Below the pieces are notes generated by a model. That model was not told the DNA's origin. It worked only from the letters and a program-made list of their open reading frames with translations, and did not search any database. A stretch of DNA of 48,930 nucleotides from the IMG/VR virus record IMGVR_UViG_3300031687_000023, positions 1-48,930 of that record. The stretch is one strand, 5' to 3'. This DNA comes from a virus. The position numbers were made by a program, and so were the translations under genes. Of this stretch, positions 1 through 16,002 are shown in pieces. How positions within the stretch are numbered: position 1 is the first letter of the stretch; each line of letters begins with the position of its first letter.

Positions 1-4
1 CAGT

Positions 5-22
5 TGTACACTTATATGTACA
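5..22. repeat. Short inverted repeat near the left window edge
   Basis: TGTACA occurs twice (5-10 and 17-22), separated by CTTATA. As TGTACA is its own reverse complement, the two copies can form a 6-bp stem with a 6-nt loop. It lies about 20 bases before the first gene and could belong to a promoter, operator or processing site. The window starts here, so the upstream context cannot be judged. Confidence 0.3.
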
Positions 23-44
23 TTAAAGTGTTCCATGGAGTGTT

Positions 45-533: not shown

Positions 534-535
534 CT

Positions 536-1048
536 ATGGAAGAAACAGTACTTGACCGTATCAATAATGAATACGAAGAGCTTTATGCTAAGGCTATTAA
601 GTTACAGAAGACGTTAGCATCCCTACCTAAGGACATCTCAGCCGATCAGGTCATGCTTATGCGTAAACAGTTCATTGCTATGAATGATTACTTAAATGTC
701 CTACAGGCACGCATGTATGACCTTGAGCATGCAATGGAAGCTGCAGAGCAACAAGCAGAGAGTGATGGAGAGTTCGTCGCTACAATGGATTTTGGTGAAG
801 CTATTGACTCAGCAAGGTATGGAATGCGTATTGCTCGTCAGGGATGGAATGGTAAGGGTATGCATGTAGTGCTTATGCCTGGGTATAAAGGTGAGGCTAG
901 TGAAGCAACATCAGAGATCCATGGTATGGACAAGTACGCCAGCATTCGTGTAATGCCTTATTGGACTATTAAGACTGCAGACGGAATTATCAATACATGG
1001 GCTCCTAGTGTTAGTGATACACTGGCTCTGGATTGGTACGTAGTTTAA
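536..1048 (+). CDS. Tad2-like (DUF2829) anti-Thoeris domain protein with N-terminal helical extension
   Basis: Residues about 84-170 match the DUF2829/Tad2 pattern: an N-terminal MDFGEAI helix, the RQGWNGKGM segment, and near the C terminus IKTADG followed by APSVSDTLALDW. Characterised Tad2 proteins are phage anti-defence sponges that bind the cyclic ADP-ribose-type signal made by Thoeris ThsB, so the effector is not activated. Residues 1-75 form a separate highly helical segment (VLDRINNEYEEL to RMYDLEHAM) resembling the small 'crAss001_48-related' phage family. Typical Tad2 proteins are only about 90 residues, so this is a two-domain fusion. It sits in the early accessory block, where anti-defence genes are expected. 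The domain match is strong; activity against Thoeris is inferred. Confidence 0.82.
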   Translation: MEETVLDRINNEYEELYAKAIKLQKTLASLPKDISADQVMLMRKQFIAMNDYLNVLQARMYDLEHAMEAAEQQAESDGEFVATMDFGEAIDSARYGMRIARQGWNGKGMHVVLMPGYKGEASEATSEIHGMDKYASIRVMPYWTIKTADGIINTWAPSVSDTLALDWYVV

Positions 1049-1065
1049 CAATTAAAGGAGTCCCC

Positions 1066-1236
1066 ATGAGTAGATCAAAGAGTAAGCCATACACTGGATC
1101 CAAAGCAGTAGATGCAACTTGTCGAAGTCATGGGGACTGCCCTGCTTGTAAGGGTGACCGGGAGCATAAACATGCAAGAAGAGTCCCAGCAGAATCAATT
1201 GCCTCTCAGATCGTACGGTATGACACCGAGAGGTGA
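1066..1236 (+). CDS. Small Cys/His-rich phage protein, 56 aa
   Basis: The ATG at 1066 follows an excellent AAAGGAG ribosome site, whereas the longer in-frame start at 1033 lies inside the preceding gene without one, so I chose 1066. The protein begins MSRSKSKPYTGSKAVD and carries CRSHGDCPACKGDREH, a compact Cys/His cluster that could bind one zinc ion. Short proteins of this layout are common in tailed phages but have no assigned function. Its 3' end overlaps the next gene by 65 bases in another frame. Confidence 0.75.
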   Translation: MSRSKSKPYTGSKAVDATCRSHGDCPACKGDREHKHARRVPAESIASQIVRYDTER

Positions 1237-1537
1237 ACCTATGCCTCAGACTATTGAGGAATGGAAGCATCTTGTAGATCTGGGTGAGAAAGCTATGTTC
1301 AGAGACAAGGAGACTATCTCCATGTTGAAGATGAAGGTTAATAACCTTGAGCAGAAGCTAAAGGCTAAGAAGCCTGCAGTAGTTGCACCAACATCTACAA
1401 AAGTATCAACTAAAAAGTGCCCACAGTGTGGTGCCACTAACCTACTGACATTTACCAGTATGAATATAAAGACATGTTCAACATGTCGTATAGACATCCC
1501 TTGGTATTTAGAAGAAGGGCAGAAGCCCTTATTTTAA
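1172..1537 (+). CDS. Hypothetical protein with C-terminal zinc ribbon, 121 aa
   Basis: The start at 1172 (MQEESQQNQ) has a GGGAG ribosome site 7 bases upstream; a longer in-frame start at 1112 has none. The middle is a predicted helix or coiled coil (about residues 45-70, KETISMLKMKVNNLEQKL). The C terminus has two CxxC knuckles, KCPQCGATN and TCSTCRI, spaced like a zinc ribbon. A nucleic-acid or protein-binding role is likely from the fold type only. The gene starts inside the previous one and ends 9 bases before the dNMP kinase gene. Confidence 0.7.
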   Translation: MQEESQQNQLPLRSYGMTPRGEPMPQTIEEWKHLVDLGEKAMFRDKETISMLKMKVNNLEQKLKAKKPAVVAPTSTKVSTKKCPQCGATNLLTFTSMNIKTCSTCRIDIPWYLEEGQKPLF

Positions 1538-1546
1538 GGAAGTACT

Positions 1547-2140
1547 ATGAAAAACATTAGGCTAATCGGTGTAGCGGGTCTTGCTAGATCCGGTAAGGAC
1601 ACCGTCACCAATATGTTAGCTAAGCATTATGATGCGTACACCGCAGCGTTCGCTGACCCAATCAAGCATATGTTAGAGGTAGGTTTAGGTATAACCTTCG
1701 ACGAACTGTACAAAGGTGATAAGTCTCTTATCCATCCTAAGTATGGTGTGTCTCTACGTCACATGATGCAGTCCTTAGCTACTGATTGGGGCAGAGAATA
1801 CATCTCTGATGATGTGTGGATACGTGCCGTAGAAAGCATTATAGAGGGCATTGGAGAGGGTACTCACATAGTTAGTGATGTACGTTTTGAAGATGAAGCT
1901 GCGTGGGTACGTGAGCATGGTATGTTAATCCATGTGACCGGTAGGGGAGGTATCCCTGGAGAGCACGCTAGCGAAAGCGGTGTGCTGATAGATAGGTTAG
2001 ATGTTGTTATAGACAACTCAGGAAGTATGGCTAAGCTACGTAGCCAAATCAATCACATAGTAGAATCACATGTACTAGGAGAATTCAGCAATGGATTTAA
2101 AAGCAAAAATATTACGTCAAAAGAAGCTAGATTACGTTAA
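1547..2140 (+). CDS. Deoxynucleoside monophosphate kinase (dNMP kinase-like)
   Basis: This enzyme would phosphorylate dNMPs to dNDPs in the cytoplasm, supplying precursors for phage DNA synthesis from degraded host DNA. The N terminus holds a P-loop (GLARSGKDTV, residues 11-20), followed by FADPIKHML, the RHMMQSLATDWGRE helix and VSDVRFEDEA around residue 105, all typical of phage dNMP kinases. HASESG near residue 143 matches the conserved segment near the family's C-terminal end. The 197-residue length is normal for the compact version. The ribosome site is AAGGAAG. The next small gene starts inside its 3' end. Confidence 0.85.
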   Translation: MKNIRLIGVAGLARSGKDTVTNMLAKHYDAYTAAFADPIKHMLEVGLGITFDELYKGDKSLIHPKYGVSLRHMMQSLATDWGREYISDDVWIRAVESIIEGIGEGTHIVSDVRFEDEAAWVREHGMLIHVTGRGGIPGEHASESGVLIDRLDVVIDNSGSMAKLRSQINHIVESHVLGEFSNGFKSKNITSKEARLR

Positions 2141-2249
2141 AGGTGAGATAGCTAACTATGAAATGGCAGTTAAGCACGGTAAGGATTGGGCTAGCCAATT
2201 CAACCTCAAGAAACTGGCAGAGCTGAACGCAAAGCTACTATCATTATAG
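2091..2249 (+). CDS. Small helical hypothetical protein, 52 aa
   Basis: This short ORF begins MDLKAKILRQKKLDYVKG and ends LAELNAKLLSL. It has an AGGAG ribosome site 8-9 bases before its ATG and overlaps the end of the dNMP kinase gene by 50 bases in another frame. It is highly charged and almost entirely helix-forming. It is the last gene before the terminator at 2270, so it closes the first transcription unit. No function can be assigned. Confidence 0.6.
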   Translation: MDLKAKILRQKKLDYVKGEIANYEMAVKHGKDWASQFNLKKLAELNAKLLSL

Positions 2250-2269
2250 GCAATTAAGCCAATCACAAG

Positions 2270-2293
2270 AGACACCTAAGGGTGTCTTTTTTT
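2270..2293 (+). terminator. Factor-independent terminator
   Basis: A perfect 7-bp stem AGACACC / GGTGTCT with the 4-nt loop TAAG is followed by a run of T residues. It lies 20 bases after the 52-aa gene and immediately before the hairpin at 2296, so it separates the left accessory unit from the MoxR/VWA unit. Confidence 0.88.
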
Positions 2294-2295
2294 AT

Positions 2296-2310
2296 ACGTG
2301 CTCCGCACGT
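2296..2310 (+). promoter_or_regulatory. Candidate N4-type vRNAP hairpin promoter, site 1
   Basis: ACGTGC-TCC-GCACGT forms a perfect 6-bp stem with a 3-nt loop. It follows a terminator directly and lies 29 bases before the ATG of the MoxR gene. It shares the GTGC-TCC-GCAC core with sites at 6149 and 11000, while the outer pairs change in a compensatory way. N4 vRNAP recognises 5-7 bp, 3-nt-loop hairpins extruded on the template strand; here the template-strand loop reads GGA. Start of transcription would be expected about 11 bases after the loop centre. Confidence 0.62.
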
Positions 2311-2339
2311 TTCTACCTAATTAATAAATAGGAACTATT

Positions 2340-3353
2340 ATGGAATTATCAACTAAAGACATCCCTGAAGCGGTTGTAAATACACTATATGCAGGACTAG
2401 TGCCTTTTATTAAAGGTAGTCCGGGCATTGGTAAGTCTGACATCGTACGTCAGGTTGCTGAGGAGCTAAACTTAAAGGTTATAGACTTTCGTCTTAGCCA
2501 AGCAGATCCAACTGATCTACAGGGATTCCCTGGAGTACGGAACGATCGTGCAACATTCTACCCAGGTGAGATCTTCCCTATTGAAGGGGATGAGGTTCCA
2601 GCTGGATATAACGGATGGTTACTGTTTCTCGATGAGATGAACAGTGCACCTATGTCAGTACAGGCTGCAGCGTATAAGTTGTGCCTAGATAAGCAGGTAG
2701 GTACTCACAATCTACATAAGAATGTAGCTATTGTAGGTGCCGGCAACCTGACCACCGATAAGGCCATTACACAGCGTTTAAGTACAGCTATGCAATCACG
2801 CCTTATTCACTTTACTATGGCTGTAGACCCTGATGCTTGGCTCAAGTGGGCTAACGTTAGTGGTATTGATCATCGGATCACAAGCTTCATTGAATATCGT
2901 AAAGAATTACTTCATAAGTTTGACCCTAGCCATGCTGGTGATACATTCCCTTGTCCTCGTACATGGGAGTTCTTGTCTAAGCAGATCAAAGGTAAAGAGA
3001 AGCTGGGCCATATTGATGTAGTGTGTGCTGCTGGAACCGTAGGTGAAGGCCCGGCACTAGAGTTCAAGGGGTTTAGTGAGATCTTTCAGAGCTTACCTAA
3101 AATCAAGGACATCATTAATAAGCCTACTACCGTTAAGATCCCTAATGAGCCAAGTGTTCACTATGCTCTAGCGGGACTAATCTCCTATGAAGTCTCTATG
3201 GAGAATATAAACAACTTAGCCACGTTCGTGGAACGTCTACCAGCTGACTTTCAGGTAGTTACTTGGAAGTCTGCAGTACGTCGTAACGCTGAGATCATTA
3301 ATGCACCATATATTGACCAGTGGATCACAAAGAACGCACAGGAGATGTTATGA
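2340..3353 (+). CDS. MoxR-type AAA+ ATPase (N4 gp24-like)
   Basis: The protein has Walker A GSPGIGKS (about residues 27-34), Walker B LLFLDEMN, a sensor-like VGAGN segment and an arginine-finger-like MQSRLIHF, in the order of MoxR/RavA AAA+ proteins. Such ATPases act as chaperone-like remodelling machines, usually with a VWA-domain partner. That partner is two genes downstream at 4259, and N4-like phages carry the same pair. It is the first gene after the hairpin at 2296 and its stop overlaps the next start (ATGA). Family assignment is firm; the phage process it serves is unknown. Confidence 0.88.
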   Translation: MELSTKDIPEAVVNTLYAGLVPFIKGSPGIGKSDIVRQVAEELNLKVIDFRLSQADPTDLQGFPGVRNDRATFYPGEIFPIEGDEVPAGYNGWLLFLDEMNSAPMSVQAAAYKLCLDKQVGTHNLHKNVAIVGAGNLTTDKAITQRLSTAMQSRLIHFTMAVDPDAWLKWANVSGIDHRITSFIEYRKELLHKFDPSHAGDTFPCPRTWEFLSKQIKGKEKLGHIDVVCAAGTVGEGPALEFKGFSEIFQSLPKIKDIINKPTTVKIPNEPSVHYALAGLISYEVSMENINNLATFVERLPADFQVVTWKSAVRRNAEIINAPYIDQWITKNAQEML

Positions 3354-4249
3354 AATATGTATCAGCACTAGATTTAACGTCTGACGTAAATGTCTTTACG
3401 GCAATCTCTGCAGCAGACGAAGATACTAAGCTTGGTAAGATACGTCATCAGTGTATTCCATTATTTGATAAGGGAACCTTAGAAAGATTTTACTTTCATA
3501 ATGGGCACAATGGGGTGTCTTCTAGGATATACGAGAACAACTCTATTGAACTAATAGTGAGCAACGGTCTGGCAGATGTTGTTACGATAGACTCGCTGAA
3601 TATTGTAGTGGGCCCTGTACGTCGATTCACTAGTTATGTGATGGACATCACAGGTCATACTGCAGATGGTAGGCAAGTGCCTGTTCCTAAGAATAACCTT
3701 GATAAGAATCAGATGGTCATTGTTGATATGTCTACGTCTACAGGAAAGATCTTTGAGGATGATAAGGACATTGTAATGTTCGATATGGTACCTCCAAATA
3801 GGGCTCAGAGGCTTATGTTCCTACCTAATAGTAATGGAATGTATAAGCTACAGAAAGATCATGTCAATAACTTCTATATGCCACCCAATAAGGCAATTCG
3901 TAAGGAGTACCGGGATAAGATTAATACTCTCATCACAAAGGTAACTTTACTTAGCTTTATTAAGGATGACCATAATAAGAAGGTTGCAGTTCCTAAGGAT
4001 CTTGAGAATCTTGCCCATACTTTATGGAAGGAACCTCTAGCTAAGCAGCATGAGGCTATATTCGCACATGTAGATGGATCATATGAAAGCCAGCTATTTA
4101 TGAAGCTTGTTCTTGATAAGAATAACAACCATCACTACTACAGTCGTGCACGTGATCTAGTACAGAACATGATTAAGTACTACACCCAGTTCCGTAATGA
4201 AGTGGAGGTGGAGCACTTTACTTGTAACAAATCATCCCGTTGGGGATAG
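3350..4249 (+). CDS. Hypothetical protein between MoxR ATPase and VWA protein, 299 aa
   Basis: The start at 3350 overlaps the stop of the ATPase gene (ATGA) and has an AGGAG site 6 bases upstream; a longer start at 3320 is buried in the ATPase gene. I do not recognise the family. The first 150 residues look beta-rich and the last 130 helical with many Lys/Asn/His residues. There is no membrane segment. Because it is inserted between a MoxR ATPase and its VWA partner with translational coupling, it is probably a third component or substrate adaptor; this is inference. Confidence 0.78.
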   Translation: MKYVSALDLTSDVNVFTAISAADEDTKLGKIRHQCIPLFDKGTLERFYFHNGHNGVSSRIYENNSIELIVSNGLADVVTIDSLNIVVGPVRRFTSYVMDITGHTADGRQVPVPKNNLDKNQMVIVDMSTSTGKIFEDDKDIVMFDMVPPNRAQRLMFLPNSNGMYKLQKDHVNNFYMPPNKAIRKEYRDKINTLITKVTLLSFIKDDHNKKVAVPKDLENLAHTLWKEPLAKQHEAIFAHVDGSYESQLFMKLVLDKNNNHHYYSRARDLVQNMIKYYTQFRNEVEVEHFTCNKSSRWG

Positions 4250-4258
4250 GAGAATATT

Positions 4259-5422
4259 ATGGAAGACAAATACCCACAAGTTGAAATTACACCAGCCCTA
4301 CAGAAGGAGCTGGATAGGACTAAGATTGGTTTAATGATGCAAGGGGGTACCTTCCTAATATCTGTTGGTCTGATGATGCAGCATATCTTTACTAATGCTA
4401 TTGATACTGCAGCTACTGATGGTAAACGTATTTACTTTAACCCATCGTTCTTTAACTCGCTTAATAAGCAGGAACGTATCGGTGTATTGGCACATGAGAT
4501 TATGCATGTTGCCTTGATGCACATGATCCGTAAGGGTGAACGTGACCACAGTGTCTATAACCAAGCTGGTGACTATGTCATCAACGACATCTTGCGTAAC
4601 AGTGGTTACATATTACCTGAGCCACATCTATATGATGCAAAGTACCACGGCTGGAGCACAGAGCAGATCTATGATGATCTGATCCAAGATGAGGATGCTC
4701 AGGGTAAGCCTAACGCTCTTGAGGGCGATGTAGACTTCTCTGATGGTGCAGACTCTGAGACACTAGGCGATATTGCTACTAGTGTGCAAGATACCGTCAT
4801 GAAGGCTAGATCTCAGGCTAAGATGGAAGGTGGTGAGGAAGCAGGTGGCATACCCGGAGAAGTTGACCGTGTTATTGATGCTCTCATTAACCCTGTTCTA
4901 GATTGGACTCAGTTGTTAGCTCGCTTTATGGATAGTAATGCTAAAGATGATTATACGTGGAAGCGTCCTAACAGACGGTACTTCCCTCATCACTACATGC
5001 CTACTATGTACTCAGAGAGTATTGACCACATTACAGTGGCAGTAGACACGTCAGGGTCAGTTAGTCCTGCTATGTTGGCTGAGATCCTTACTGAAGTTAA
5101 GAGTATCCATGACACATATAAGCCAAATAGGATGACTATTCTGGATTGTGATTATGAGATCCATAACATTCATGAAGTGGATGACAGTACTGACATACTA
5201 AAACTTAAATTCTCTGGATGTGGAGGGACTTCGTTCCTACCACCACTAGATTACTGTAAGGAGAACGACACTAATGTGTTGTTGTACTTCACTGATCTAT
5301 ATGCAGAGGCAATTGGCCCAGATGATGGGTACGAATTTGATACTCTATGGATCTGCTATTCTAAGCATGACCCACAGGAGTATGGGGAGACTATATATTA
5401 TGAGTCAGAACATGCATGGTAA
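4259..5422 (+). CDS. VWA-domain / metallopeptidase-like protein (N4 gp25-like)
   Basis: The N-terminal half contains a zincin-type HEIMH (residues 79-83) in a helix of the DUF2201 type. The C-terminal half is a von Willebrand A domain with the metal-site signature DTSGS (D263 onward) and a later FTDL strand. A Lys/Glu/Gly linker around residues 160-205 separates them. VWA proteins of this kind partner with MoxR ATPases, encoded here at 2340. The complex may act as a chaperone or protease on a host or virion component. The motif reading is solid; the target is unknown. Confidence 0.88.
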   Translation: MEDKYPQVEITPALQKELDRTKIGLMMQGGTFLISVGLMMQHIFTNAIDTAATDGKRIYFNPSFFNSLNKQERIGVLAHEIMHVALMHMIRKGERDHSVYNQAGDYVINDILRNSGYILPEPHLYDAKYHGWSTEQIYDDLIQDEDAQGKPNALEGDVDFSDGADSETLGDIATSVQDTVMKARSQAKMEGGEEAGGIPGEVDRVIDALINPVLDWTQLLARFMDSNAKDDYTWKRPNRRYFPHHYMPTMYSESIDHITVAVDTSGSVSPAMLAEILTEVKSIHDTYKPNRMTILDCDYEIHNIHEVDDSTDILKLKFSGCGGTSFLPPLDYCKENDTNVLLYFTDLYAEAIGPDDGYEFDTLWICYSKHDPQEYGETIYYESEHAW

Positions 5423-5651
5423 ACTATTTGCCGTAGTGTCCTTTGGGTATTCAACTAAGTTGATAATGCCCTTAGAGGATGCTACCCAGATGCTGGCACT
5501 ATTCAAGAACACATCATTACTAACTGGCTATGGTGATAGCCAAGCTATTGAGCCGTTTGGAATAGGTGGGTCAGACAGTACTGTCTCACTGGAGCTTATA
5601 AATGAATTAGCTATTAATAAAATAAAAGTTAAGAATACTATTGGAGGATGA
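5400..5651 (+). CDS. Hypothetical protein, 83 aa
   Basis: The ATG at 5400 overlaps the end of the VWA gene by 23 bases and has a GGGGAG site about 12 bases upstream; an internal Met four codons later is an alternative. The protein (MSQNMHGKLFAVVSFG) looks like a small mixed alpha/beta fold with no motif that I recognise. Its stop lies just before the start of the 165-aa gene, so it belongs to the MoxR/VWA transcription unit. Confidence 0.65.
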   Translation: MSQNMHGKLFAVVSFGYSTKLIMPLEDATQMLALFKNTSLLTGYGDSQAIEPFGIGGSDSTVSLELINELAINKIKVKNTIGG

Positions 5652-5652
5652 T

Positions 5653-6150
5653 ATGTCGAAGAAACTTAATGTGTCATCTCTACTATGGGAGATAAGGTCA
5701 AAGTACATACTGCCTGCTATTAAAACCAGGGAGATATTACTATTCAGGTATCTTGCCTCTATGCGTGACACCCCTAGTAAGGAAGAAGGTTTTAGGCTAC
5801 GTACCTCTAGTGGGGCTACTTATTGGTTATATGTGACCAACGATAGAAACATCATTAATCCACCAACAATATATATGTTTGAGTTACCTGACTATAACCA
5901 AGCAGAGATTACCAAGCATATAAAATGTTTGGATGATCTAACTGCTACTACAGCTAAGGTTAAGACATACTTAAGTTATCTTAATAATAAGAGTAACAGT
6001 GTGACTGATGTAGCCTATGCCTTACCTCCACATATCAATCAACTAGTTCCGATGATAACGCCTACAGAGTACCTGGATCACGATCTACGTGACCCTAAGA
6101 TGTATGCATTGTTGAATGAACTCCAGATCAAACTACTATTGCTGTCATAA
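5653..6150 (+). CDS. Hypothetical protein, 165 aa
   Basis: The ATG at 5653 (MSKKLNVSS) is chosen because a GGAGG site lies 5 bases upstream; a TTG 12 bases earlier would place the ribosome site inside the coding sequence. The protein is soluble-looking, basic, and without recognisable motifs. Its stop codon is part of the hairpin at 6149-6163, so translation termination and that hairpin physically overlap. It is the last gene of the second unit. Confidence 0.72.
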   Translation: MSKKLNVSSLLWEIRSKYILPAIKTREILLFRYLASMRDTPSKEEGFRLRTSSGATYWLYVTNDRNIINPPTIYMFELPDYNQAEITKHIKCLDDLTATTAKVKTYLSYLNNKSNSVTDVAYALPPHINQLVPMITPTEYLDHDLRDPKMYALLNELQIKLLLLS

Positions 6151-6163
6151 GTGCTCCGCACTT
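6149..6163 (+). promoter_or_regulatory. Candidate N4-type vRNAP hairpin promoter, site 2
   Basis: AAGTGC-TCC-GCACTT is a perfect 6-bp stem with loop TCC, sharing the GTGC-TCC-GCAC core with sites at 2296 and 11000 but with different, still paired, outer bases. It is followed by a T run, so on its own it could also work as a weak terminator. Against a pure terminator role, the loop and inner stem are conserved and a separate stronger terminator-like hairpin follows at 6180. Confidence 0.52.
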
Positions 6164-6179
6164 TTTCACGCCACCGGTT

Positions 6180-6221
6180 TAAGGGTATCTAGTACAAAGT
6201 TGCTGGGTATCCTTATTTTTT
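6180..6221 (+). terminator. Terminator or leader attenuator
   Basis: TAAGGGTATC (6180-6189) pairs with GGTATCCTTA (6206-6215) as a 10-bp stem including two G-U pairs, followed by six T residues. It lies between hairpin site 2 and the gene at 6235, whose AAGGAG ribosome site starts directly after the T run. It may terminate read-through from the second unit or attenuate transcripts that start at the hairpin. Confidence 0.65.
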
Positions 6222-6234
6222 AAGGAGAACCATT

Positions 6235-6696
6235 ATGGGATGCGATATACACGTATTTAAAGAATACCAAAGACCCGGTACAGACTACTGGGTAAGTTAT
6301 GATACTTGGTGCCAAGATGAAGATGGTGGTATGTCACCTGTTTGGAAAGACGACGACCCAGGTAGATGTTATGCAGCATTTGGTTTATTGGCAGATGTGC
6401 GTGAGGGGTACTCATATGGGCACCCACCTAAGGGTCTGCCAGAAAATATTAGTAATCTGGTGGAGAAGGAGAGTGATTCCTGGGGGGATGATGGGCATTC
6501 CCATACGTACCATACAAAGGTTGAATTAAACGCCATGATTATAAAGCTGTCTATCCTACCTATAGAAGAGTCTGATGACATCTCAAGACAGAAGGCATAT
6601 ATATTTAATCTTATTAGGATCTTGAATGAGGTACCTACACCTATTGTTATAGATCGTGAAACCACTACACGAATCGTAATATGGTTTGATAATTAA
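6235..6696 (+). CDS. Conserved phage protein of the MGCDIH type, 153 aa
   Basis: The protein starts MGCDIHVFKEY and contains CYAAFGLLADVREGY, PPKGLPENIS and a DGHSHTYH cluster. This arrangement (GCDIH start, aromatic-rich core, GLP segment, His-rich DxHS segment) recurs in many phage proteins of unknown function. The conserved Cys, Asp and His residues suggest a metal site, which is inference. The ribosome site AAGGAG is strong and the gene leads the third unit. The next gene follows 10 bases after its stop. Confidence 0.75.
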   Translation: MGCDIHVFKEYQRPGTDYWVSYDTWCQDEDGGMSPVWKDDDPGRCYAAFGLLADVREGYSYGHPPKGLPENISNLVEKESDSWGDDGHSHTYHTKVELNAMIIKLSILPIEESDDISRQKAYIFNLIRILNEVPTPIVIDRETTTRIVIWFDN

Positions 6697-6706
6697 AGAG
6701 AATAAT

Positions 6707-6919
6707 ATGAGAAAATTTAAAAACCCTAGTGGTTCGGTGATGCTGATGCAGCTTAAAGGGATGTACCAGGTACACTCTGACAACCTACGTAGTATCACCA
6801 TTCTTAAAACAACCGATGAATACAAGGCAGTTGCCCACTACCAGGAAATGGTATGGGAATTGGAGGCTTCAAATGATAGCAGAGATGTTAATGTGTCTAG
6901 CCCTCAATGGGTATCATGA
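6707..6919 (+). CDS. Small hypothetical protein, 70 aa
   Basis: The start at 6707 (MRKFKNPSG) has an AAAGAG site 6-7 bases upstream and is better than the in-frame ATG at 6686 inside the previous gene. The N-terminal half looks like beta strands and the C-terminal half is acidic. The last 47 bases overlap the cell-wall hydrolase gene, whose ribosome site lies inside this ORF. No family recognised. Confidence 0.6.
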   Translation: MRKFKNPSGSVMLMQLKGMYQVHSDNLRSITILKTTDEYKAVAHYQEMVWELEASNDSRDVNVSSPQWVS

Positions 6920-7289
6920 GGCTCGTGGTGAGCCTACAGCAGGTGAGTTAGCAGTAAACCACGTAGTTATGAACCGTGTTGCAGATAGTCGTTACGAAGA
7001 CGATGTGTGCGGTGTGGTAAAGGCGGGACGTTACTGGAATAATGCTCCGGTACGTAACAGATGTGCATTCAGCTGGTGGTGTGACGGTAAGTCAGATGAG
7101 CCAAAAGATATAAGCGCATGGTTGTATTCAAATAAGCTGGCCAGTGACGTCATATTAGGCGTGTACCCAGATATTACAGATGGTTCGACCCATTACCATA
7201 AGATAGGTTATCATCCGAACTGGATTAATGACCGTGGTATGGTACGAGTCGGTCTAATAGGTGACCACATCTTCTATAGATGGGAGTGA
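6873..7289 (+). CDS. SleB-type cell wall hydrolase (Hydrolase_2 family)
   Basis: The sequence ALNGYHEARGEPTAGELAVN followed by HVVMNRV, then VCGVVKAG and CAFSWWCDG, is the signature of the SleB/CwlJ-like cell-wall hydrolases; the Glu of YHEARGE (E16) is the expected catalytic acid. These enzymes cleave peptidoglycan glycan strands. The start at 6873 has a GGAGG site 5-6 bases upstream. At 138 residues it is a bare catalytic domain without signal peptide or membrane anchor. It sits among early plus-strand genes, far from the lysis cassette at 37705-38811 that has its own M15 peptidase. It may need a holin or act on the host in another way. Confidence 0.82.
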   Translation: MIAEMLMCLALNGYHEARGEPTAGELAVNHVVMNRVADSRYEDDVCGVVKAGRYWNNAPVRNRCAFSWWCDGKSDEPKDISAWLYSNKLASDVILGVYPDITDGSTHYHKIGYHPNWINDRGMVRVGLIGDHIFYRWE

Positions 7290-7305
7290 CCTAACCATCT
7301 TATTT
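7279..7305 (+). terminator. Weak terminator-like hairpin
   Basis: AGATGG (7279-7284) pairs with CCATCT (7295-7300) across an 11-nt loop and is followed by the T-rich TATTTT. It overlaps the end of the hydrolase gene and lies just before a TATAAT box. Short stem and long loop make it uncertain. Confidence 0.35.
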
Positions 7306-7316
7306 TAAGATATAAT
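7286..7316 (+). promoter_or_regulatory. Possible host sigma70 promoter
   Basis: A consensus -10 box TATAAT (7311-7316) is preceded by GTGACC (7286-7291), a 4/6 match to TTGACA but with a long 19-base spacer. It would read into the tiny membrane ORF at 7343. Directly after the -10 box comes GTGCTCC, the left arm and loop of the vRNAP-type hairpin, but without its right arm. Confidence 0.35.
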
Positions 7317-7342
7317 ATGTGCTCCAAAATTAGGGGTACATC

Positions 7343-7438
7343 ATGAACATCAATGAAGACGACTTTCCTGTGGAGTCTATTATGTATTTCACAGTAGGAG
7401 TATTACTATTAATACTAAAGAAAATAGCCGAGATGTAA
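7343..7438 (+). CDS. Tiny single-span membrane protein, 31 aa
   Basis: This ORF starts MNINEDDFPVES and continues with a hydrophobic stretch (MYFTVGVLLLIL) ending in KKIAEM. It has an AGGGG ribosome site 6-7 bases before the ATG. The acidic N terminus, one membrane span and basic tail fit a small inner-membrane phage peptide. The ORF is too short to be certain. Confidence 0.5.
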   Translation: MNINEDDFPVESIMYFTVGVLLLILKKIAEM

Positions 7439-7464
7439 GAACGGCTGAAGTGCTACAACGTACT

Positions 7465-7584
7465 ATGAAATATCTTATGCATTATTACACCTTGGAAGAA
7501 ATCCAAGATATATTGCATAGCGATACACTCGCCAACTACCATAGGATCATGTCTGATGGACACACCCAAGCTACTAACCGTTAA
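7465..7584 (+). CDS. Possible very small ORF, 39 aa
   Basis: The reading frame begins MKYLMHYYTLEEIQDIL and ends at 7584. It has no good ribosome site and overlaps the better-supported 58-aa gene at 7556. It fills an otherwise empty stretch between two small genes and its N terminus looks protein-like, so it is listed with low confidence. Confidence 0.25.
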   Translation: MKYLMHYYTLEEIQDILHSDTLANYHRIMSDGHTQATNR

Positions 7585-7732
7585 GCAGTACAATGAAATA
7601 TATTCAAAGTCACTAGAGGATCGTGAAGATGCTATAGGACGTAAAATGACTGCACGAGCTAAGATCGAGCAGTATAACTCTCATAAAGATATGCTCTTAT
7701 TAATAGAGCCCTACCCGTCATTGGCGTACTAA
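7556..7732 (+). CDS. Small helical hypothetical protein, 58 aa
   Basis: The protein starts MDTPKLLTVKQYNEIYSKS and ends EPYPSLAY. It is charged and helical, reminiscent of small phage regulatory or coiled-coil proteins, but I recognise no family. The start has AGGA about 9 bases upstream. The last 10 bases of the gene form the first unit of the direct-repeat array at 7723. Confidence 0.55.
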   Translation: MDTPKLLTVKQYNEIYSKSLEDREDAIGRKMTARAKIEQYNSHKDMLLLIEPYPSLAY

Positions 7733-7774
7733 AGGTGTGCTAAGCGTACAAACGGTGTACTAATGGCGTACTAA
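7723..7774 (+). repeat. Array of five phased ~10-bp direct repeats
   Basis: Units GGCGTACTAA (7723), GGTGTGCTAA (7734), AGCGTACAAA (7743), GGTGTACTAA (7754) and GGCGTACTAA (7765) follow each other with starts 9-11 bases apart, roughly one DNA helical turn. The consensus is GGYGTACTAA. Only the first unit overlaps a gene. The array lies about 95 bases before the DNA polymerase start, so binding sites for a phage regulator or replication initiator are plausible. Confidence 0.7.
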
Positions 7775-7817
7775 ACAGTTTACATGAGACCAGCCCTCTC
7801 CATGGGGTGTTCCTACA

Positions 7818-7850
7818 GGATTAGTCCACCTGCGGTCACAACGGACTACC
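7818..7850 (+). promoter_or_regulatory. Structured leader before the DNA polymerase gene
   Basis: TAGTCC (7822-7827) pairs with GGACTA (7843-7848), extended by GG (7818-7819) with CC (7849-7850) after a 2-base bulge. The stem-loop ends 17 bases before the polymerase ATG and just ahead of its GAGGT ribosome site, so it could modulate translation. The rest of 7775-7867 shows no gene that I trust. Confidence 0.4.
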
Positions 7851-7867
7851 TAATTTCTGAGGTAACT

Positions 7868-9364
7868 ATGAAGCACTTATACACAGACCCGGACAAGTTT
7901 CCGGAGGCTGCCCTGTTAATTAAGGGCACCGCATTCAAGTATACCGACATTAAGCAGCACTACGGAAACCCCTTAAAGGTATGTTTAAAGGCTCTTCCGC
8001 TAGAGTATAACTCCTTAGGGAAGGCTCCAGCTAAGATGATAAAGGAAGTGCTACCTGCACTTTTAGCAGATATAAATGCAGATGGTATTACTACTGTAAT
8101 CATCGCAGACTCTGCGTACTTTAAGGCTGCTACCCGTCAATCTAAGGCGGAACCACACTATGGTTACAGAATGCCTTGTACTGTTGAAGGTTTTGAGCAC
8201 ATGCATGTGTTCCTAACCGGTAACTACCAAGGGTTGTTCTATAACCCACGTATCCAAGACAAGATAGACCTAAGTTTAGCTGCTATTGCTGATCATCTAG
8301 CTGATAACTATCAACAGTTGGGTCAAGATGTTGTCAGATCGTCAACTTTTGTTCATACAATACCTGACATCACTAGCACTCTACTTATGCTACTTAAGTA
8401 TCCCTCACTTACATGTGACGTGGAGACCTATGGTCTAAGCATTGATGTGTCCCGTATTGGGACTATTGCATTTGCATGGAACCAGCATGAAGGTGTCACT
8501 ATAAATGTGAACCACATGATTAGTCGTAGTTCTGAAGAGAAGCTTCATATAGCTGACCTGATGCATAATTTCTTTGTAGAATTTAAGGGCAACCTTAAAT
8601 ATCATAATGCATCCTTCGATATTCGTTGTATTATTTATGACTTCTTCATGTATGAGGATCCTACGGACTTCGTTGCAATGATAGATGCCCTAGACATTAT
8701 GTTTAGGGATATTGATGACACAAAGTTAATCACTTATCTGGCTACGAATAATACTGCAGAGAATAAACTCTCCTTAAAGGAGAACGCATTCGAGTTTGCC
8801 GGCAACTACGCTCAGGAAGATATCCATGATATTAACTTGATCCAAAATGTAGATCTTATGAACTACAATTTAGTTGATTGCTTAAGCACGTGGTATGTAT
8901 TTAATAAGTACCACAAAACTATGGTGGATGAATTCCAGCTGGAATTTTATTCCAATATTTTTTTACCTTCACTGAAGAATATTACTCAAATGGAGTTAAC
9001 AGGCATGCCTATGGATATGCCTACGATCCAAGATGTTGAGTATGACCTGCAGGAAATCATGGACGAGCGTACATCTAGCTTGCTAGAGGAAGAGCTTGTT
9101 AAGGATTACCTATGGTTAGAGCAGAAGAAAGCGTTCATTAAAAAGAATGCGCTGCTCAAGAAGTTGTTTAAACCCCTAGACGACTTTAAGAGCAGCCTTA
9201 ACACCAATAGTCCTAAACAGCTTGGTAGCTTGCTCTACGACTTCCTTGGGTTACCTATATTGGATATTACTGATACTGGGCAACCAGCTACAGGCAAGAA
9301 GACAATTAAGAAGTTATATGACTCCTTGATTAACCAATATAATATAACTGAGGATGAGTTATGA
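7868..9364 (+). CDS. Family A DNA polymerase, N-terminal part (3'-5' exonuclease and thumb base)
   Basis: The proofreading exonuclease motifs are all present: Exo I CDVETYG (D184, E186), Exo II KYHNASFD, and Exo III YNLVDCLSTW. The first ~180 residues are a domain that I cannot assign. After the exonuclease comes the pre-thumb segment (MELTGMPMD, then NTNSPKQLGSLLYDFLGLP) and a TGKKTIKKL stretch typical of the lead-in to the pol domain. The polymerase catalytic motifs are missing here and are found at 9725. The start at 7868 has a GAGGT site 4-5 bases upstream, better than the longer 7784 start. The stop overlaps the next ATG (ATGA). Confidence 0.87.
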   Translation: MKHLYTDPDKFPEAALLIKGTAFKYTDIKQHYGNPLKVCLKALPLEYNSLGKAPAKMIKEVLPALLADINADGITTVIIADSAYFKAATRQSKAEPHYGYRMPCTVEGFEHMHVFLTGNYQGLFYNPRIQDKIDLSLAAIADHLADNYQQLGQDVVRSSTFVHTIPDITSTLLMLLKYPSLTCDVETYGLSIDVSRIGTIAFAWNQHEGVTINVNHMISRSSEEKLHIADLMHNFFVEFKGNLKYHNASFDIRCIIYDFFMYEDPTDFVAMIDALDIMFRDIDDTKLITYLATNNTAENKLSLKENAFEFAGNYAQEDIHDINLIQNVDLMNYNLVDCLSTWYVFNKYHKTMVDEFQLEFYSNIFLPSLKNITQMELTGMPMDMPTIQDVEYDLQEIMDERTSSLLEEELVKDYLWLEQKKAFIKKNALLKKLFKPLDDFKSSLNTNSPKQLGSLLYDFLGLPILDITDTGQPATGKKTIKKLYDSLINQYNITEDEL

Positions 9365-9753
9365 GCACATTTAAACTAAGAGACCTGGGTGAGAAGCTCA
9401 GGGTTGGTCTTGATAAGATCTCTCCTGGTACTGTAGGTATCAGCTGGAGTCTTGAGGACTATAATTTAAAAAGTAACTGTATTACAGGCGATTTAACCCT
9501 TCTAATGAAGGAAGAGGGTAGTACCCAGTATTTTAGTCGCATGAAAACAGTTCTACTACTTTCTGACCTTAATGTAGATATGCGTAGAATGCATTACGTA
9601 CCTGATGGTGCTGATTCAATACCGTTTGTGTCACAAATAATACTCAATACCCGTATATCTTTGGATGACTTTCCTGAGATAGCACTGTCTAATTATATTA
9701 AAGACGCACAGGAAACTTTAAATTATGAGTGGCGCATCGAAGATCAAGAATAG
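9361..9753 (+). CDS. Hypothetical protein encoded between the two polymerase parts, 130 aa
   Basis: The gene starts inside the stop of the exonuclease part (ATGA) and overlaps the pol-domain gene by 29 bases. The protein (MSTFKLRDLGEKLRVG) looks like a compact alpha/beta fold and is rather acidic. It has no homing-endonuclease, intein or intron-associated motif that I can see. It could be an inserted gene that divided the polymerase, or a linker or clamp subunit of a three-part enzyme. No homologue recognised. Confidence 0.72.
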   Translation: MSTFKLRDLGEKLRVGLDKISPGTVGISWSLEDYNLKSNCITGDLTLLMKEEGSTQYFSRMKTVLLLSDLNVDMRRMHYVPDGADSIPFVSQIILNTRISLDDFPEIALSNYIKDAQETLNYEWRIEDQE

Positions 9754-10840
9754 GGACGATGCTATTAAGGTAGCTAGAGTCCTTAAGTATTTAATAGAGA
9801 TAAATGAAGTTAGTAAATTATTAACTGCATTCATCCCTGCCTTCTTATTTAAAACCATACCTAAGATGGGTAGATGGTTCCTGCACGGTAACTTCCACCT
9901 AGGAGGTACCAAGTCAGGTCGTCTAAGCTCGTCTAAGATCAACTTACAACAGTTGCCCTCTACTGGTAGTAAGTACGCTAAAGCCATTAAAGGATGCTTC
10001 CAGGCTCCTGAAGGGTGGGTAATAGTAGGTGCTGACTTCTCTAGCCTAGAGGATAGGATATCTGCACTGACTACACGAGATCCAAACAAGCTAAAGGTTT
10101 ATACCGATGGGTATGACGGTCACTGTATGAGAGCATTCGCCTACTTCGGTAAGCAGATGCCTGACATTGTGGACACTGTTGAATCCATTAACTCAATTGA
10201 GACCATGTACGAAGCACTTAGGCAGAGATCTAAGGGCCCTACATTTGCTCTTACTTACCAGGGTACGTCACATACTTTAGTGAACAACCTAGGCTTCTCT
10301 AAGAAGGAAGCTAAAGAGATTGAGGACAACTATCATGAATTATATAAAATTTCAGATAATTGGGTACAGGATAAACTGCTTCTAGCGTCTAAGGAGGGCT
10401 ATGTGACGGGTGCTTTTGGTCTTCGACTAAGAACCCCACTATTAGCTAGAACCATCTTAAACACGAGGCATACGCCGTATGAGGCGCAAGCTGAAGGTCG
10501 TACCGCAGGTAATGCGTTAGGACAGTCTTATGGCCTGTTAAATAACAGGGCAGCTAATGAATTTATGGATAAGGTGCATGCATCTGACTACAGATACACC
10601 ATCTTACCCATAGCTCATATCCATGATGCTCAGTATTACATGGTTAAAGCTGACCCAGATTTGATCCACTGGTTAAACACGAACCTCGTGGAAAGTATGT
10701 CATGGCAGGACTTGCCGGAACTAAAACACGACACTGTTAAGCTTGGTGCAACCCTAGAAATATACTACCCTAGTATGGCTGATAAACTTACTATACCTAA
10801 TAACGCTACAAGGTCAGAAATAGTACATGCAGCTCTTTAA
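9725..10840 (+). CDS. Family A DNA polymerase, C-terminal palm/fingers part
   Basis: This 371-residue protein carries the pol domain: the KSGRLSSSKINLQQLPS segment, motif A GADFSSLEDR (D104), motif B RQRSKGPTFALTYQG (K170) and motif C HDAQYY (D301). The thumb helices (residues 10-45) directly continue where the 7868 protein stops. An AGGAAA site lies about 10 bases before its ATG. Both halves are in the same reading frame but 360 bases apart, with stops between them, so two separate polypeptides must assemble. All catalytic residues look intact, so the enzyme is probably active. Confidence 0.9.
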   Translation: MSGASKIKNRDDAIKVARVLKYLIEINEVSKLLTAFIPAFLFKTIPKMGRWFLHGNFHLGGTKSGRLSSSKINLQQLPSTGSKYAKAIKGCFQAPEGWVIVGADFSSLEDRISALTTRDPNKLKVYTDGYDGHCMRAFAYFGKQMPDIVDTVESINSIETMYEALRQRSKGPTFALTYQGTSHTLVNNLGFSKKEAKEIEDNYHELYKISDNWVQDKLLLASKEGYVTGAFGLRLRTPLLARTILNTRHTPYEAQAEGRTAGNALGQSYGLLNNRAANEFMDKVHASDYRYTILPIAHIHDAQYYMVKADPDLIHWLNTNLVESMSWQDLPELKHDTVKLGATLEIYYPSMADKLTIPNNATRSEIVHAAL

Positions 10841-10854
10841 AAATGCTAAAGTAT

Positions 10855-10878
10855 GTGTGCTCTCGTTGATGAGCATAC
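10855..10878 (+). promoter_or_regulatory. Hairpin after the polymerase gene
   Basis: GTGTGCTC (10855-10862) pairs with GAGCATAC (10871-10878) in an 8-bp stem with one G-U pair and an 8-nt loop. No T run follows, so it is not a standard terminator. It opens the 193-base non-coding gap 10841-11033. Confidence 0.45.
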
Positions 10879-10932
10879 CTACCAAGTAGAGTTAAAGAAT
10901 CAATAAGCCAGGGTTAGTGTTTTTCCCCATAG

Positions 10933-10965
10933 AGTTGTGGCCCCCGCAACTGGTGACAGAGGGGG
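10933..10965 (+). ncRNA. Possible H-type RNA pseudoknot in the non-coding gap
   Basis: In the RNA, AGUUG (10933-10937) can pair with CAACU (10947-10951), while CCCCC (10941-10945) can pair with GGGGG (10961-10965), giving two interleaved 5-bp stems. An alternative fold is an 8-bp hairpin, AGTTGTGG with CCGCAACT, with a CCC loop and one G-U pair. It lies upstream of hairpin site 3, so it would be in the 3' trailer of the polymerase transcript. Confidence 0.4.
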
Positions 10966-10999
10966 TATCCCAGTAATCAGACTATTAAACAAAATATAT

Positions 11000-11012
11000 T
11001 GTGCTCCGCACA
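11000..11012 (+). promoter_or_regulatory. Candidate N4-type vRNAP hairpin promoter, site 3
   Basis: TGTGC-TCC-GCACA forms a 5-bp stem with a TCC loop, sharing the GTGC-TCC-GCAC core with sites at 2296 and 6149. It lies in an AT-rich stretch 21 bases before the nuclease ATG at 11034 and would drive the block nuclease, primase, ATPase, SSB and RusA. Confidence 0.6.
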
Positions 11013-11033
11013 CTTCTATGAAGAGAACTATCT

Positions 11034-12008
11034 ATGTTAACAAATACAGCCAATTTGCCTATGAGCGTATCCCTATGGTTAGCCCATGATGATTATGATC
11101 ATTCAAGCGATCCATATAGCATTAGTGCTACCAGTCTATTAAAGCCAATTAAGAGCTTAGTACTGGGACGACGTGCCGCAGGTAACTCACAATCCGATGT
11201 AGCTGACCTAATTCCTAGCAGAATGGGTACTGCAATCCATACTGCAATAGAGAGCGCTTGGTTAAGCCCTGAGCTGCCTAAGCATCTACTCGAACTTGGT
11301 TACTCCCCTAGGGTAGTGAACAATATTGTGATTAACCCAACTAAAGAACAGCTGACTGATGATTCCGTACCCATCTATATGGAGCTACGTGGATTTAAGA
11401 AGGTTGGTAAGTACACTGTCTCAGGTAAGTTTGACTTCGTGTCAGGCGGTGTATTAGAAGACTTCAAGACTACAGGCACCTACGGATACATTAACCAATC
11501 CAACGCTGAGAAGTTCATTCAGCAGGGTAGTATCTATAAGTGGCTGCACCCGAACATCATCACTGAAGACTATATGTATATCCAATACATCTTCACTGAC
11601 TGGAGTGCTGCTAAGGCACGGTCTGACAAGAACTATCCAGCAAGTCGGATTGTTCCTCAGAAGTTCGTACTGAATTCCGTACAGGAGACAGAGGCATTTG
11701 TATCTGAGCGTATCAACCTGGTTGCTACCTTAGAGACTGCAGATGAATCTGAGATGCCTGATTGTACCCCTAAGGATTTATGGGAACGGGATCCTGTCTT
11801 TAAGTATTATAAAAATCCTAACAGTAGAGCTCGTTCTACTAAAAACTTCACTACATACTTTGAAGCCCATGATCGTCTTATGCAAGATGGATCTGTTGGT
11901 GTCGTTGTAGAGGTGAAGGGTGAAATCAAGTTTTGTGCTTATTGCCCTGCCGTTGACATATGTAAACAGGCTGCCGGCTATAAAGCTTCAGGTAGATTAA
12001 TAGTCTAA
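11034..12008 (+). CDS. PD-(D/E)XK exonuclease with Fe-S-type cysteines (RecB/Cas4-like)
   Basis: MGTAIHTAIE (H69) and GKFDFVSGG...LEDFKTT (about residues 130-148) form the PD-(D/E)XK active site, followed by a Gln/Tyr motif-IV-like helix (FIQQGSIYKWL). A Cys in PDCTPKDLW and the C-terminal CAYCPAVDIC give the four-cysteine pattern of Cas4/AddB-like iron-sulfur nucleases. Such enzymes degrade or process DNA ends during phage replication and recombination. It is the first gene after hairpin site 3 and is followed by the ATPase-primase gene after 11 bases. Confidence 0.85.
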   Translation: MLTNTANLPMSVSLWLAHDDYDHSSDPYSISATSLLKPIKSLVLGRRAAGNSQSDVADLIPSRMGTAIHTAIESAWLSPELPKHLLELGYSPRVVNNIVINPTKEQLTDDSVPIYMELRGFKKVGKYTVSGKFDFVSGGVLEDFKTTGTYGYINQSNAEKFIQQGSIYKWLHPNIITEDYMYIQYIFTDWSAAKARSDKNYPASRIVPQKFVLNSVQETEAFVSERINLVATLETADESEMPDCTPKDLWERDPVFKYYKNPNSRARSTKNFTTYFEAHDRLMQDGSVGVVVEVKGEIKFCAYCPAVDICKQAAGYKASGRLIV

Positions 12009-12019
12009 AAGAGGGAATT

Positions 12020-14170
12020 ATGAAAAGTTTTGAAGATATGGACTATTTTGTCCCGCAAGAGAAGTTGGTTAAGACCCTGGTTCAGAAGACCCAGAACAAT
12101 AACCCACTATTCTTCAGGATATTGACCGTCTACTATTTCTCTAAGATAGCTTCCATGATGCGTGTTAATTTAAAAACACTGCACCAGGGGACTATTCCGG
12201 TGAACACGTACGCTATAAATCTTAGTGTATCTGGATCAGGTAAGGGATTTAGTACCAACATTATTGAAGAGAATGTCATTCATTTGTTTAAGGAACGTTT
12301 CTTATCTGAAACATTTCCTACTCTTGCAAACCAGAGTATACGAAATGAGGCAATACGCAGAGCACCTCGGCATAACATCCCAGTTGATGAGATGGAAGAG
12401 AAGCTTACTAAGGAGTTTGAACTACTAGGGCCCCTACTCTTTAGTTTCGACTCAGGTACATCTCCTGCTATTAAGCAGATGCGCCACAAGCTTCTTATGT
12501 CGGGTGCTGGCAGTATTAACCTAGAGATTGATGAGATTGGCTCTAACCTAGTGCACAACACAGATGTATTGAATACATTCTTGGAATTGTACGACGTAGG
12601 TAAGATTAAGCCAAAGCTAATCAAGAACACTGCTGAGAATCTACGTAGTGAGGAGATTGATGGTAAGACCCCTACTAACATGATGCTCTACGGTACTCCC
12701 AGTAAGCTCATGAACGGTGGTAAGACTGAAGAAGAGTATATGTCTATGCTCGACACAGGCTACGCTAGACGTTGTTTGTTTGGTTACTCTACCAAGGTTC
12801 ATACTGACATCAATGTCTCTCCAGAAGACCTGTTTGACATGCTAACGGACACTTCTGCAGACACGGTACTAGATGATCTAGCTATCAGTATGCATAAGTT
12901 GGCTGATCCTATTAATTTTAATAGTGAGTTAGCTCTTCTTAAACCAGAATCTCTAATTCTTCTAGAGTATAAGCAGATGTGCGAGACACGTGCTCGTAAT
13001 ATGCGTGAGTTTGAGGAGATCCAAAAAGCAGAGATGAGCCATAGGTACTTCAAGGCGTTAAAACTAGCAGGTGCTTATGCATTTATAGATAGTAGCGCCA
13101 TTGTGACCTCCGCTCACTTATACAGTGCGTTTAAGCTTGTTGAGGACTCTGGTGAGGCATTCGGTAGAATGTTGAACAGACCTCGTACGCATGAGCGTGT
13201 GGCTATCTACTTAGCTGATGTTCGTAAAGAAGTGACCCATGTGGATCTTATGGAGGACTTACCTTTCTTTAGAGGAGGTGCAGCCCATCGTAAGGACATC
13301 ATGACCCAAGCTATTGCATGGGGATACCGTAATAACATTGTTATACGTACTTCCTATTCAGACAGCATTGAGTTCTTTAAGGGTGAGACTATGGACGAGT
13401 CGGACATGCAGAATCTGCGTATCTCGTACTCTACAGACATAGTTAATAACTTTGAGCCTGAATACGCTCCATGGGATCAGTTACATAATTTGGTTAGTGC
13501 TCCTGACTTCCATTATGCAGCTCATCACTTTGAGGACAAGTACCGGACATCTGACAAGGCAATACCTGGGTTTAACCTAGTTATTCTTGATGTAGATGAA
13601 GGTACCTCGTTGAAGCAGGCTAAGATGTTGCTTAAGGACTATAAGGCATTCTTTGCTACGACTAAGCGTCATACTGCAGAACATAATCGCTTTAGAATTA
13701 TTATGCCTTTAACTCACAATGTGAAGTTGAATACGGCATTGTACTCTAAGTTCATGACTAACCTGTTTGAATGGCTTCCATTTGAAACTGATAGATCCAC
13801 CAAGGACATCGCACGTAAGTGGGAATCGTTCCCAGGTGAGTACTCTTACCAAGAAGGTAAGATGCTGGATGCTTTAATGTTTATCCCTGATACAAATAAG
13901 CAGGCAGAACAGCATCAGAAGATCATGGATCATGCTTCGCTATCTAACCTAGAGCGTTGGCTACTACTTAACGCTGGTGTGGGTAGCAGGTCTAATACAT
14001 TAATTAAATACACGTACGTCTTAGTGGACGGTGGCTACACAGTTGAAGCTATCCGTAATTCTGTAATCTCCTTTAACCAGAAGATGAAGAACCCATTACC
14101 TCAGGAAGAACTTGAGAAGACTGTACTAACCACAGCTATGTCAGCTGTAACTAAACGAGACTCGGAGTAA
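12020..14170 (+). CDS. ATPase-primase fusion (N-terminal P-loop, C-terminal AEP-like primase)
   Basis: Residues 71-78, SGSGKGFS, form a P-loop in a domain resembling DUF3987-type phage ATPases, with LEIDEIG as a probable Walker B. Residues about 515-575 look like an archaeo-eukaryotic-type primase: the ILDVDEG strand (D524, D526), then TTKRHTAEHNRFRIIMPL. A C-terminal helical region (SNLERWLLLNAG to KTVLTTAM) resembles the helix bundle of phage primases. The role would be primer synthesis and possibly unwinding at the fork. The domain order is reversed relative to the usual primase-then-helicase arrangement. N4 has a primase of similar position. Catalysis is inferred from motifs. Confidence 0.75.
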   Translation: MKSFEDMDYFVPQEKLVKTLVQKTQNNNPLFFRILTVYYFSKIASMMRVNLKTLHQGTIPVNTYAINLSVSGSGKGFSTNIIEENVIHLFKERFLSETFPTLANQSIRNEAIRRAPRHNIPVDEMEEKLTKEFELLGPLLFSFDSGTSPAIKQMRHKLLMSGAGSINLEIDEIGSNLVHNTDVLNTFLELYDVGKIKPKLIKNTAENLRSEEIDGKTPTNMMLYGTPSKLMNGGKTEEEYMSMLDTGYARRCLFGYSTKVHTDINVSPEDLFDMLTDTSADTVLDDLAISMHKLADPINFNSELALLKPESLILLEYKQMCETRARNMREFEEIQKAEMSHRYFKALKLAGAYAFIDSSAIVTSAHLYSAFKLVEDSGEAFGRMLNRPRTHERVAIYLADVRKEVTHVDLMEDLPFFRGGAAHRKDIMTQAIAWGYRNNIVIRTSYSDSIEFFKGETMDESDMQNLRISYSTDIVNNFEPEYAPWDQLHNLVSAPDFHYAAHHFEDKYRTSDKAIPGFNLVILDVDEGTSLKQAKMLLKDYKAFFATTKRHTAEHNRFRIIMPLTHNVKLNTALYSKFMTNLFEWLPFETDRSTKDIARKWESFPGEYSYQEGKMLDALMFIPDTNKQAEQHQKIMDHASLSNLERWLLLNAGVGSRSNTLIKYTYVLVDGGYTVEAIRNSVISFNQKMKNPLPQEELEKTVLTTAMSAVTKRDSE

Positions 14171-14172
14171 CT

Positions 14173-14493: not shown

Positions 14494-14505
14494 CAGGGGA
14501 ACCCT

Positions 14506-15228: not shown

Positions 15229-15244
15229 TAAAGGTATTAAAACT

Positions 15245-16000: not shown

Positions 16001-16002
16001 CC

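Follow-up and report, generated by a model that had tools for sequence, protein, structure and literature searches.

Introduction

Phage N4 serves as the model for polymerases that initiate transcription on an extruded DNA hairpin; the model is built on three promoters, all at the same end of a single genome. Extrusion of the N4 template strand relies on gyrase supercoiling and on the host single-stranded DNA-binding protein (SSB). Here, we analyzed a group of short hairpins in a 48,930-nt stretch of a marine N4-family virus (IMGVR_UViG_3300031687_000023; the whole stretch is referred to as the window). We consider them to be probable promoters of the type used by the N4 virion RNA polymerase (vRNAP).

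On the template strand, the N4 vRNAP is reported to need -11A/G, -10G, -8G, and +1C, while extrusion needs a loop-closing G:C pair with a 3'A and a 5'G in the loop (PMC4496689). Single-stranded DNA-binding proteins act at these hairpins, and the middle genes are transcribed by RNAPII from an AT-rich element extending from -7 to +2 (PMC4496689). Three-base-loop hairpins before gene blocks have also been predicted as promoters in other vRNAP-encoding N4-like phages, LUZ7/LIT1 and the Pectobacterium CB1 group, where the early region of each phage was assigned three (PMC3715699, PMC6027278).

Hairpins with the N4 Promoter Core

The first-pass annotation had placed three GTGC-TCC-GCAC hairpins in the window (sites b, c, and d), with coordinates and loops that proved right (Table 1). 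It had missed a fourth copy, site a, which lies beyond the window in G001 (IMGVR 3300031688_000007; 71,214 bp), a near-complete contig of the same virus sharing the window's coordinates. The stems of the four sites are 6, 6, 5, and 6 bp long, each with a three-base loop, as in inverted repeats of the N4 type. The 11-base core, GTGCTCCGCAC, occurs three times on the plus strand of the whole window and never on the minus strand (expected 0.01; none of 100 shuffles reached three). Hairpins with a C-TCC-G center and a stem of at least 5 bp number four on the plus strand of G001 and zero on the minus strand, with a Markov null mean of 0.25. Although 92.6% of window positions 1-16900 is coding, sites b and d lie outside genes and site c overlaps a stop codon. 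Each site in the window precedes a plus-strand gene, as proposed; the distance from the hairpin end to the ATG, given as 21-86 bases, was measured as 29 (b), 71 (c), and 21 (d) bases. Folded as single-stranded DNA, the template-strand hairpins reach -3.7 to -6.1 kcal/mol.

The same scan, run on N4, recovered its three mapped vRNAP promoters, P1, P2, and P3. The heptamer GCTCCGC of the window hairpins is identical to the conserved core of P2 and P3. At all four sites the template strand reads C-GGA-G, which gives -12A, -11G, -10G, -9C, and -8G, a loop with 5'G and 3'A, a C-G closing pair, and a purine at -11. Further features shared with P1-P3 are a GCTYCGC heptamer centered in a 5-7 bp stem, a template C-GRA-G triloop, a T-rich stretch from -4 to -1, the sense orientation, and a nearby gene (the center of P2 is ~21 bases from the gp2 ATG). 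Unlike the hairpins predicted in LUZ7/LIT1 and the CB1 group, those described here stand in the middle region, and their stems covary between relatives.

Table 1. Positions of the hairpins, genes, and neighboring elements (window coordinates, unless a contig or phage is named).
Feature	Position	Strand	Details
Site a	G001 68421-68431	+	12 bases past the stop codon of the RNAPII large-subunit gene
Site b, ACGTGC-TCC-GCACGT (sense)	2296-2310	+	perfect 6 bp; N4-geometry +1 = 2314
Site c, AAGTGC-TCC-GCACTT	6149-6163	+	perfect 6 bp; stop codon overlapped is that of the upstream gene; N4-geometry +1 = 6167
Site d, TGTGC-TCC-GCACA	11000-11012	+	perfect 5 bp; 5' of the exonuclease gene; N4-geometry +1 = 11017
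G008 site a, AGGGCAC-TCC-GTGCCCT			
G008 site b, ACGCGC-TCC-GCACGT			one C.A in the sense strand, G.T in the template
G008 site c, AAGAGAGC-TCC-GCTCTCTT			
G008 site d, AATGTGC-TCC-GCACATT			
N4 P1, GTTGC-TTC-GCAAC	N4 93		core GCTTCGC
N4 P2, AAGAAGC-TCC-GCTTCTT	N4 562		
N4 P3, AAGCTGC-TCC-GCAGCTT	N4 4551		
vRNAP, 3151 amino acids	16945-26400	-	phrog_2206, E=5e-285; N4 vRNAP structures, E=1.5e-27
Unit after site b	2340-5422	+	AAA ATPase (N4 gp24-like), open reading frame (ORF), metallopeptidase/VWA protein (N4 gp25-like)
Unit after site c	6235-10840	+	small ORFs, endolysin-like protein, family A DNA polymerase in two pieces
Unit after site d	11034-16787	+	exonuclease, primase, Sak4-like protein, SSB, RusA-like resolvase
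Intrinsic-terminator-like hairpin, GAGACACC-TAAG-GGTGTCTTTTTTT	2268-2292	+	RNA fold; just 5' of site b; conserved in G002 and G008
Terminator-like hairpin with T run	6180-6221	+	between site c and the gene at 6235; missing at the orthologous place in G002
Covarying terminator-like hairpin with T run, CCCCTTAATTGGGG / CTCCTTAATTGGAG	L045:2005-2035; L047:11090-11115; L051:17127-17160 (minus)		
Repeat (T)CCATATGG..TGGCA	L046 (G001 48900-66500): 15540-15565, 15879-15905; L047 (G002): 6992, 7377, 7863		
Hairpin with 7-bp stem and loop TYTCGCTWCGCTTC	L046:15241-15268; L047:6751-6778; L052:1890-1917 (minus)		

Covariation of the Stems

Hairpins were found at orthologous intergenic sites in up to nine contigs. 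The relatives were G002/G003 (vRNAP 55% identical), G006, G007, G011, G012, and 3300009172_000088, together with the more distant G008/G009/G010 (primase 84%, vRNAP central domain 29%). Site b is kept in G002, G003, and G007, and in G008 with one mismatch, while orthologues of site d are present in every relative covering that place. The TCC loop and the C-G closing pair are invariant across the relatives. Compensatory change in the outer stem had been claimed between sites; we found it there and also between orthologous sites, which makes it stronger than claimed. Two-sided orthologous changes include GGGTGC (G001) versus GGGCAC (G008) at site a and AAGTGC versus AGAGAGC at site c.

Two-sided change affects four of the six stem pairs, in 14 alignment cells compared with 4.2 +/- 1.7 in shuffles (none of 500 reached 14). 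Paired cells make up 95% of the stem alignment, compared with at most 65% in slid registers, and the covariation score was 0.57 versus 0.16. A wobble test meant to separate template-strand from RNA pairing, comparing sense C.A with G.T mismatches within the stems, yielded few cases, of which the internal ones lean to the template type. GTGC-N3-GCAC matches with other loops in G008 (TCT and TAA) were rejected; the TCT match, at L024:2326, is antisense and was left out of the set.

Virion RNA Polymerase and Family Assignment

In an alignment of 12 vRNAPs, residues R1344, D1488, K1573, Y1581, and D1827 of the window's enzyme correspond to the catalytic residues R424, D559, K670, Y678, and D951 of N4 mini-vRNAP. 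The central domain of this enzyme covers residues ~950-2050. The giant gene lies on the strand opposite the early and middle genes, the arrangement of the Schitoviridae, where it has about 3000-3500 codons. A split T7-like RNAPII and homologues of gp24/25, gp42/43, and SSB, also characteristic of the family, are present. Judged by these genes, the virus is a member of the Schitoviridae (N4-like) with a catalytically complete vRNAP, and for this reason vRNAP promoters are the best explanation of the hairpins. No relative of the vRNAP was found in the bacterial or archaeal genomes searched.

Triloop Hairpins Across the Family

Were template GNA triloops the signal, C-TNC-G hairpins would be expected to favor the sense strand of the early/middle arm and to be missing from the late arm. 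We counted C-TNC-G hairpins with perfect stems of at least 6 bp by genome arm in N4, LIT1, D497, pYD6-A, VBP47, and G001. The early/middle arm held 45 sense versus 4 antisense hairpins and the late arms 1 versus 2; the expectation for each arm and strand was 0 to 0.3. Across the early/middle arms of 14 named schitoviruses, the count was 70 sense versus 10 antisense; of the 70, 29 precede the RNAPII 3' end and 41 follow it. LIT1 has hairpins at 9224 and 12021, and two culturable relatives, Pseudoalteromonas phage pYD6-A and Vibrio phage D497, carry them in the middle region. Among all sense triloop hairpins of nine phages, C-G-closed TTC (18), TCC (16), and TAC (11) loops ranked highest; their reverse-complement equivalents occurred 1, 2, and 0 times. 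TGG, as at the N4 starts, was located at the expected distance after 41% of the hairpins, compared with 12% upstream and 14% at random. As controls, 125 kb of unrelated contigs contained two hairpins of the same sequence, and T7 contained one, which recurs in its terminal repeats.

Not every hairpin in the family count is a promoter, because 19 of 51 perfect sense TNC hairpins lie within coding sequence when ORFs are called liberally. The survey covers a sample of phages, in which RHph_Y2_6, EE36, D454, Axy11, and RiverRider show little or no excess. The counts suggest that template-strand GNA hairpins constitute a promoter class wider than the three of N4.

Proposed Mechanism and Points Against It

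The hairpins are probably vRNAP-type promoters, as the first-pass annotation had proposed for this N4-like phage. The proposal is supported by the N4-identical heptamer, the template GGA with its C-G closure and -8G, the sense-only, intergenic, and covarying copies, and a vRNAP with all catalytic residues. At each site, the extruded template strand would form a short, C-G-closed stem with a GGA (GNA-type) triloop. The injected vRNAP would bind the loop and the major groove of the stem, and RNA would start ~11-12 bases beyond the loop center, toward the downstream plus-strand gene. Beyond the RNAPII genes, sites a-d would split the rightward arm into four units, which hold the replication genes. 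We infer the extrusion, the start sites, and at least partial expression of the units by the vRNAP.

Several observations weigh against this assignment. The N4 +1 G (template C, 11 bases from the loop center), with which N4 RNA starts, is absent at all four sites: the sense base in the N4 register is T at a, b, and d and C at c, with a purine at +2 in b, c, and d. In favor of the assignment, the relative G008, and it alone, has G at +1, at sites a and b, with N4-like starts TTTGGTG (a) and TTTTG (b). The -8G, present at all four sites of this virus, is lost together with its partner at G008 site a. In three lineages at site a, and in this virus also at site c, a terminator-like hairpin separates the triloop hairpin from its gene; transcription might therefore be attenuated there or yield a short leader RNA. 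The N4 promoter-contact residues K114, R119, W129, D901, and R904 fall in regions that do not align among the 12 vRNAPs. Because of this, and because an AlphaFold2 prediction of the central domain with three sequences was unusable (predicted local distance difference test, pLDDT, 33; predicted template modeling score, pTM, 0.22), we infer the use of the hairpins by this vRNAP rather than by the second phage polymerase.

The placement of the hairpins also counts against the assignment. N4 has three promoters in the leftmost 10% of its genome, preceding gp1, gp2, and gp15 (RNAPII), whereas the four sites here are all downstream of the RNAPII genes, a point missed in the first pass. This holds in each of the three lineages compared for placement, G001, G002, and G008, in which no C-TNC-G hairpin, even with three pairs, occurs from the left leader to the RNAPII 3' end. 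Site a directly follows RNAPII, and sites b, c, and d precede the gp24-like AAA ATPase, the DNA polymerase block, and the exonuclease/primase block, respectively. This order is independent of the joining of the G001 contig ends, because G002 and G008 each show it within a single contig. The hairpins had been said to mark early and middle units; the middle assignment fits, as they precede orthologues of N4 middle genes, but the early one is not supported, as none lies in the early block of the three lineages.

Alternative Explanations

The same placement would suit promoters of RNAPII, the split T7-like enzyme whose genes lie immediately before site a, if it recognized hairpins in this lineage. 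Every copy is downstream of RNAPII and precedes orthologues of genes that RNAPII transcribes in N4 (ATPase, DNA polymerase, exonuclease, and primase). However, the N4 enzyme lacks the N-terminal promoter-recognition part and uses its AT-rich element without a hairpin (PMC4496689), the heptamer is that of vRNAP promoters, and such hairpins stand both before and after RNAPII in other schitoviruses. We regard this explanation as unlikely.

It is also rather improbable that the hairpins act in the sense RNA, either as intrinsic terminators that close the preceding genes or as RNA-processing hairpins at those gene ends. In this virus, sites a and c each begin no more than ~20 bases from a stop codon and have a T run behind them, and the sense-strand bias is equally expected of terminators. 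However, the hairpin and loop are kept and the T run is not: G008 site a is followed by TTTGGTG, and site d lacks a T run in every lineage and ends 21 bases ahead of an ATG. Site b is already preceded by a real terminator, its mismatch in G008 would be C.A in RNA of the sense strand but is G.T on the template strand, and the late arms, which need terminators too, show no enrichment of TNC triloops. Moreover, the same element was mapped as a promoter in N4.

It is very unlikely that the hairpins bind another factor (SSB, or a protein of replication or segregation) or regulate the downstream gene as RNA elements: although SSBs act at the N4 hairpins (PMC4496689) and site d adjoins a ribosome-binding site, the exact N4 vRNAP core, gene orientation, and spacing would be coincidence, and no Rfam family matches the window.

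Neighboring Elements and Genes

At site b, the order is terminator, then promoter hairpin. The non-coding window segment 10841-10999, before site d, contains GTTG..CCCCC..CAAC....GGGGG, a possible pseudoknot, and "gtgacagaggggg" is kept in G008. In three lineages, the covarying terminator-like hairpin with a T run comes after site a and ahead of the gene (Table 1), so that RNA started at site a might be a short leader.

The first early genes, which have no vRNAP-type hairpin before them, are preceded by the repeat (T)CCATATGG..TGGCA, a candidate early promoter. Another hairpin has a 7-bp stem that changes in a compensatory manner (GTAAGGC versus AGACAGC) and a nearly constant 14-base loop, TYTCGCTWCGCTTC; it lies where the late and early genes diverge, perhaps close to the physical end of the genome. 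Sigma-70 promoters were rejected as an alternative, as sigma-70-like sites in the rightward arm are fewer than in shuffles.

Among the genes, a 118-amino-acid ORF (L045:559-915) separates the two RNAPII subunit genes in this virus; in G008 another small ORF takes this place, and in G002 there is none. The family A DNA polymerase (7784-10840) is split into ORFs 7784-9364 and 9725-10840, and a 130-amino-acid ORF without a PHROG match (9361-9753) overlaps the ends of both pieces. The endolysin-like protein (6816-7289) is encoded among the middle genes, not in a late lysis cassette.

Implications for the Schitoviridae

In the openly accessible literature, we found no description of middle-region hairpins, of their covariation between relatives, or of a lineage with none in the early block. 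A broader reading, which we put forward tentatively and hold to be possible rather than probable, is that GNA-triloop hairpins are Schitoviridae-wide and serve middle genes besides or, here, instead of early genes. The early block, including RNAPII, would then be started by a different element, for which the CCATATGG..TGGCA repeat is a candidate, and the division of labor between the injected polymerase and RNAPII would be unlike that in N4.

If the hairpins work as proposed, the sequences of uncultured viruses would suffice to locate the promoters of an injected polymerase, and covariation would provide an internal check. Hairpins before middle genes would, if true, limit the N4 early/middle scheme to part of the family. 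As the vRNAPs here are far from that of N4 (~22% identity to named relatives), their polymerase/hairpin pairs would reveal the essential contacts.

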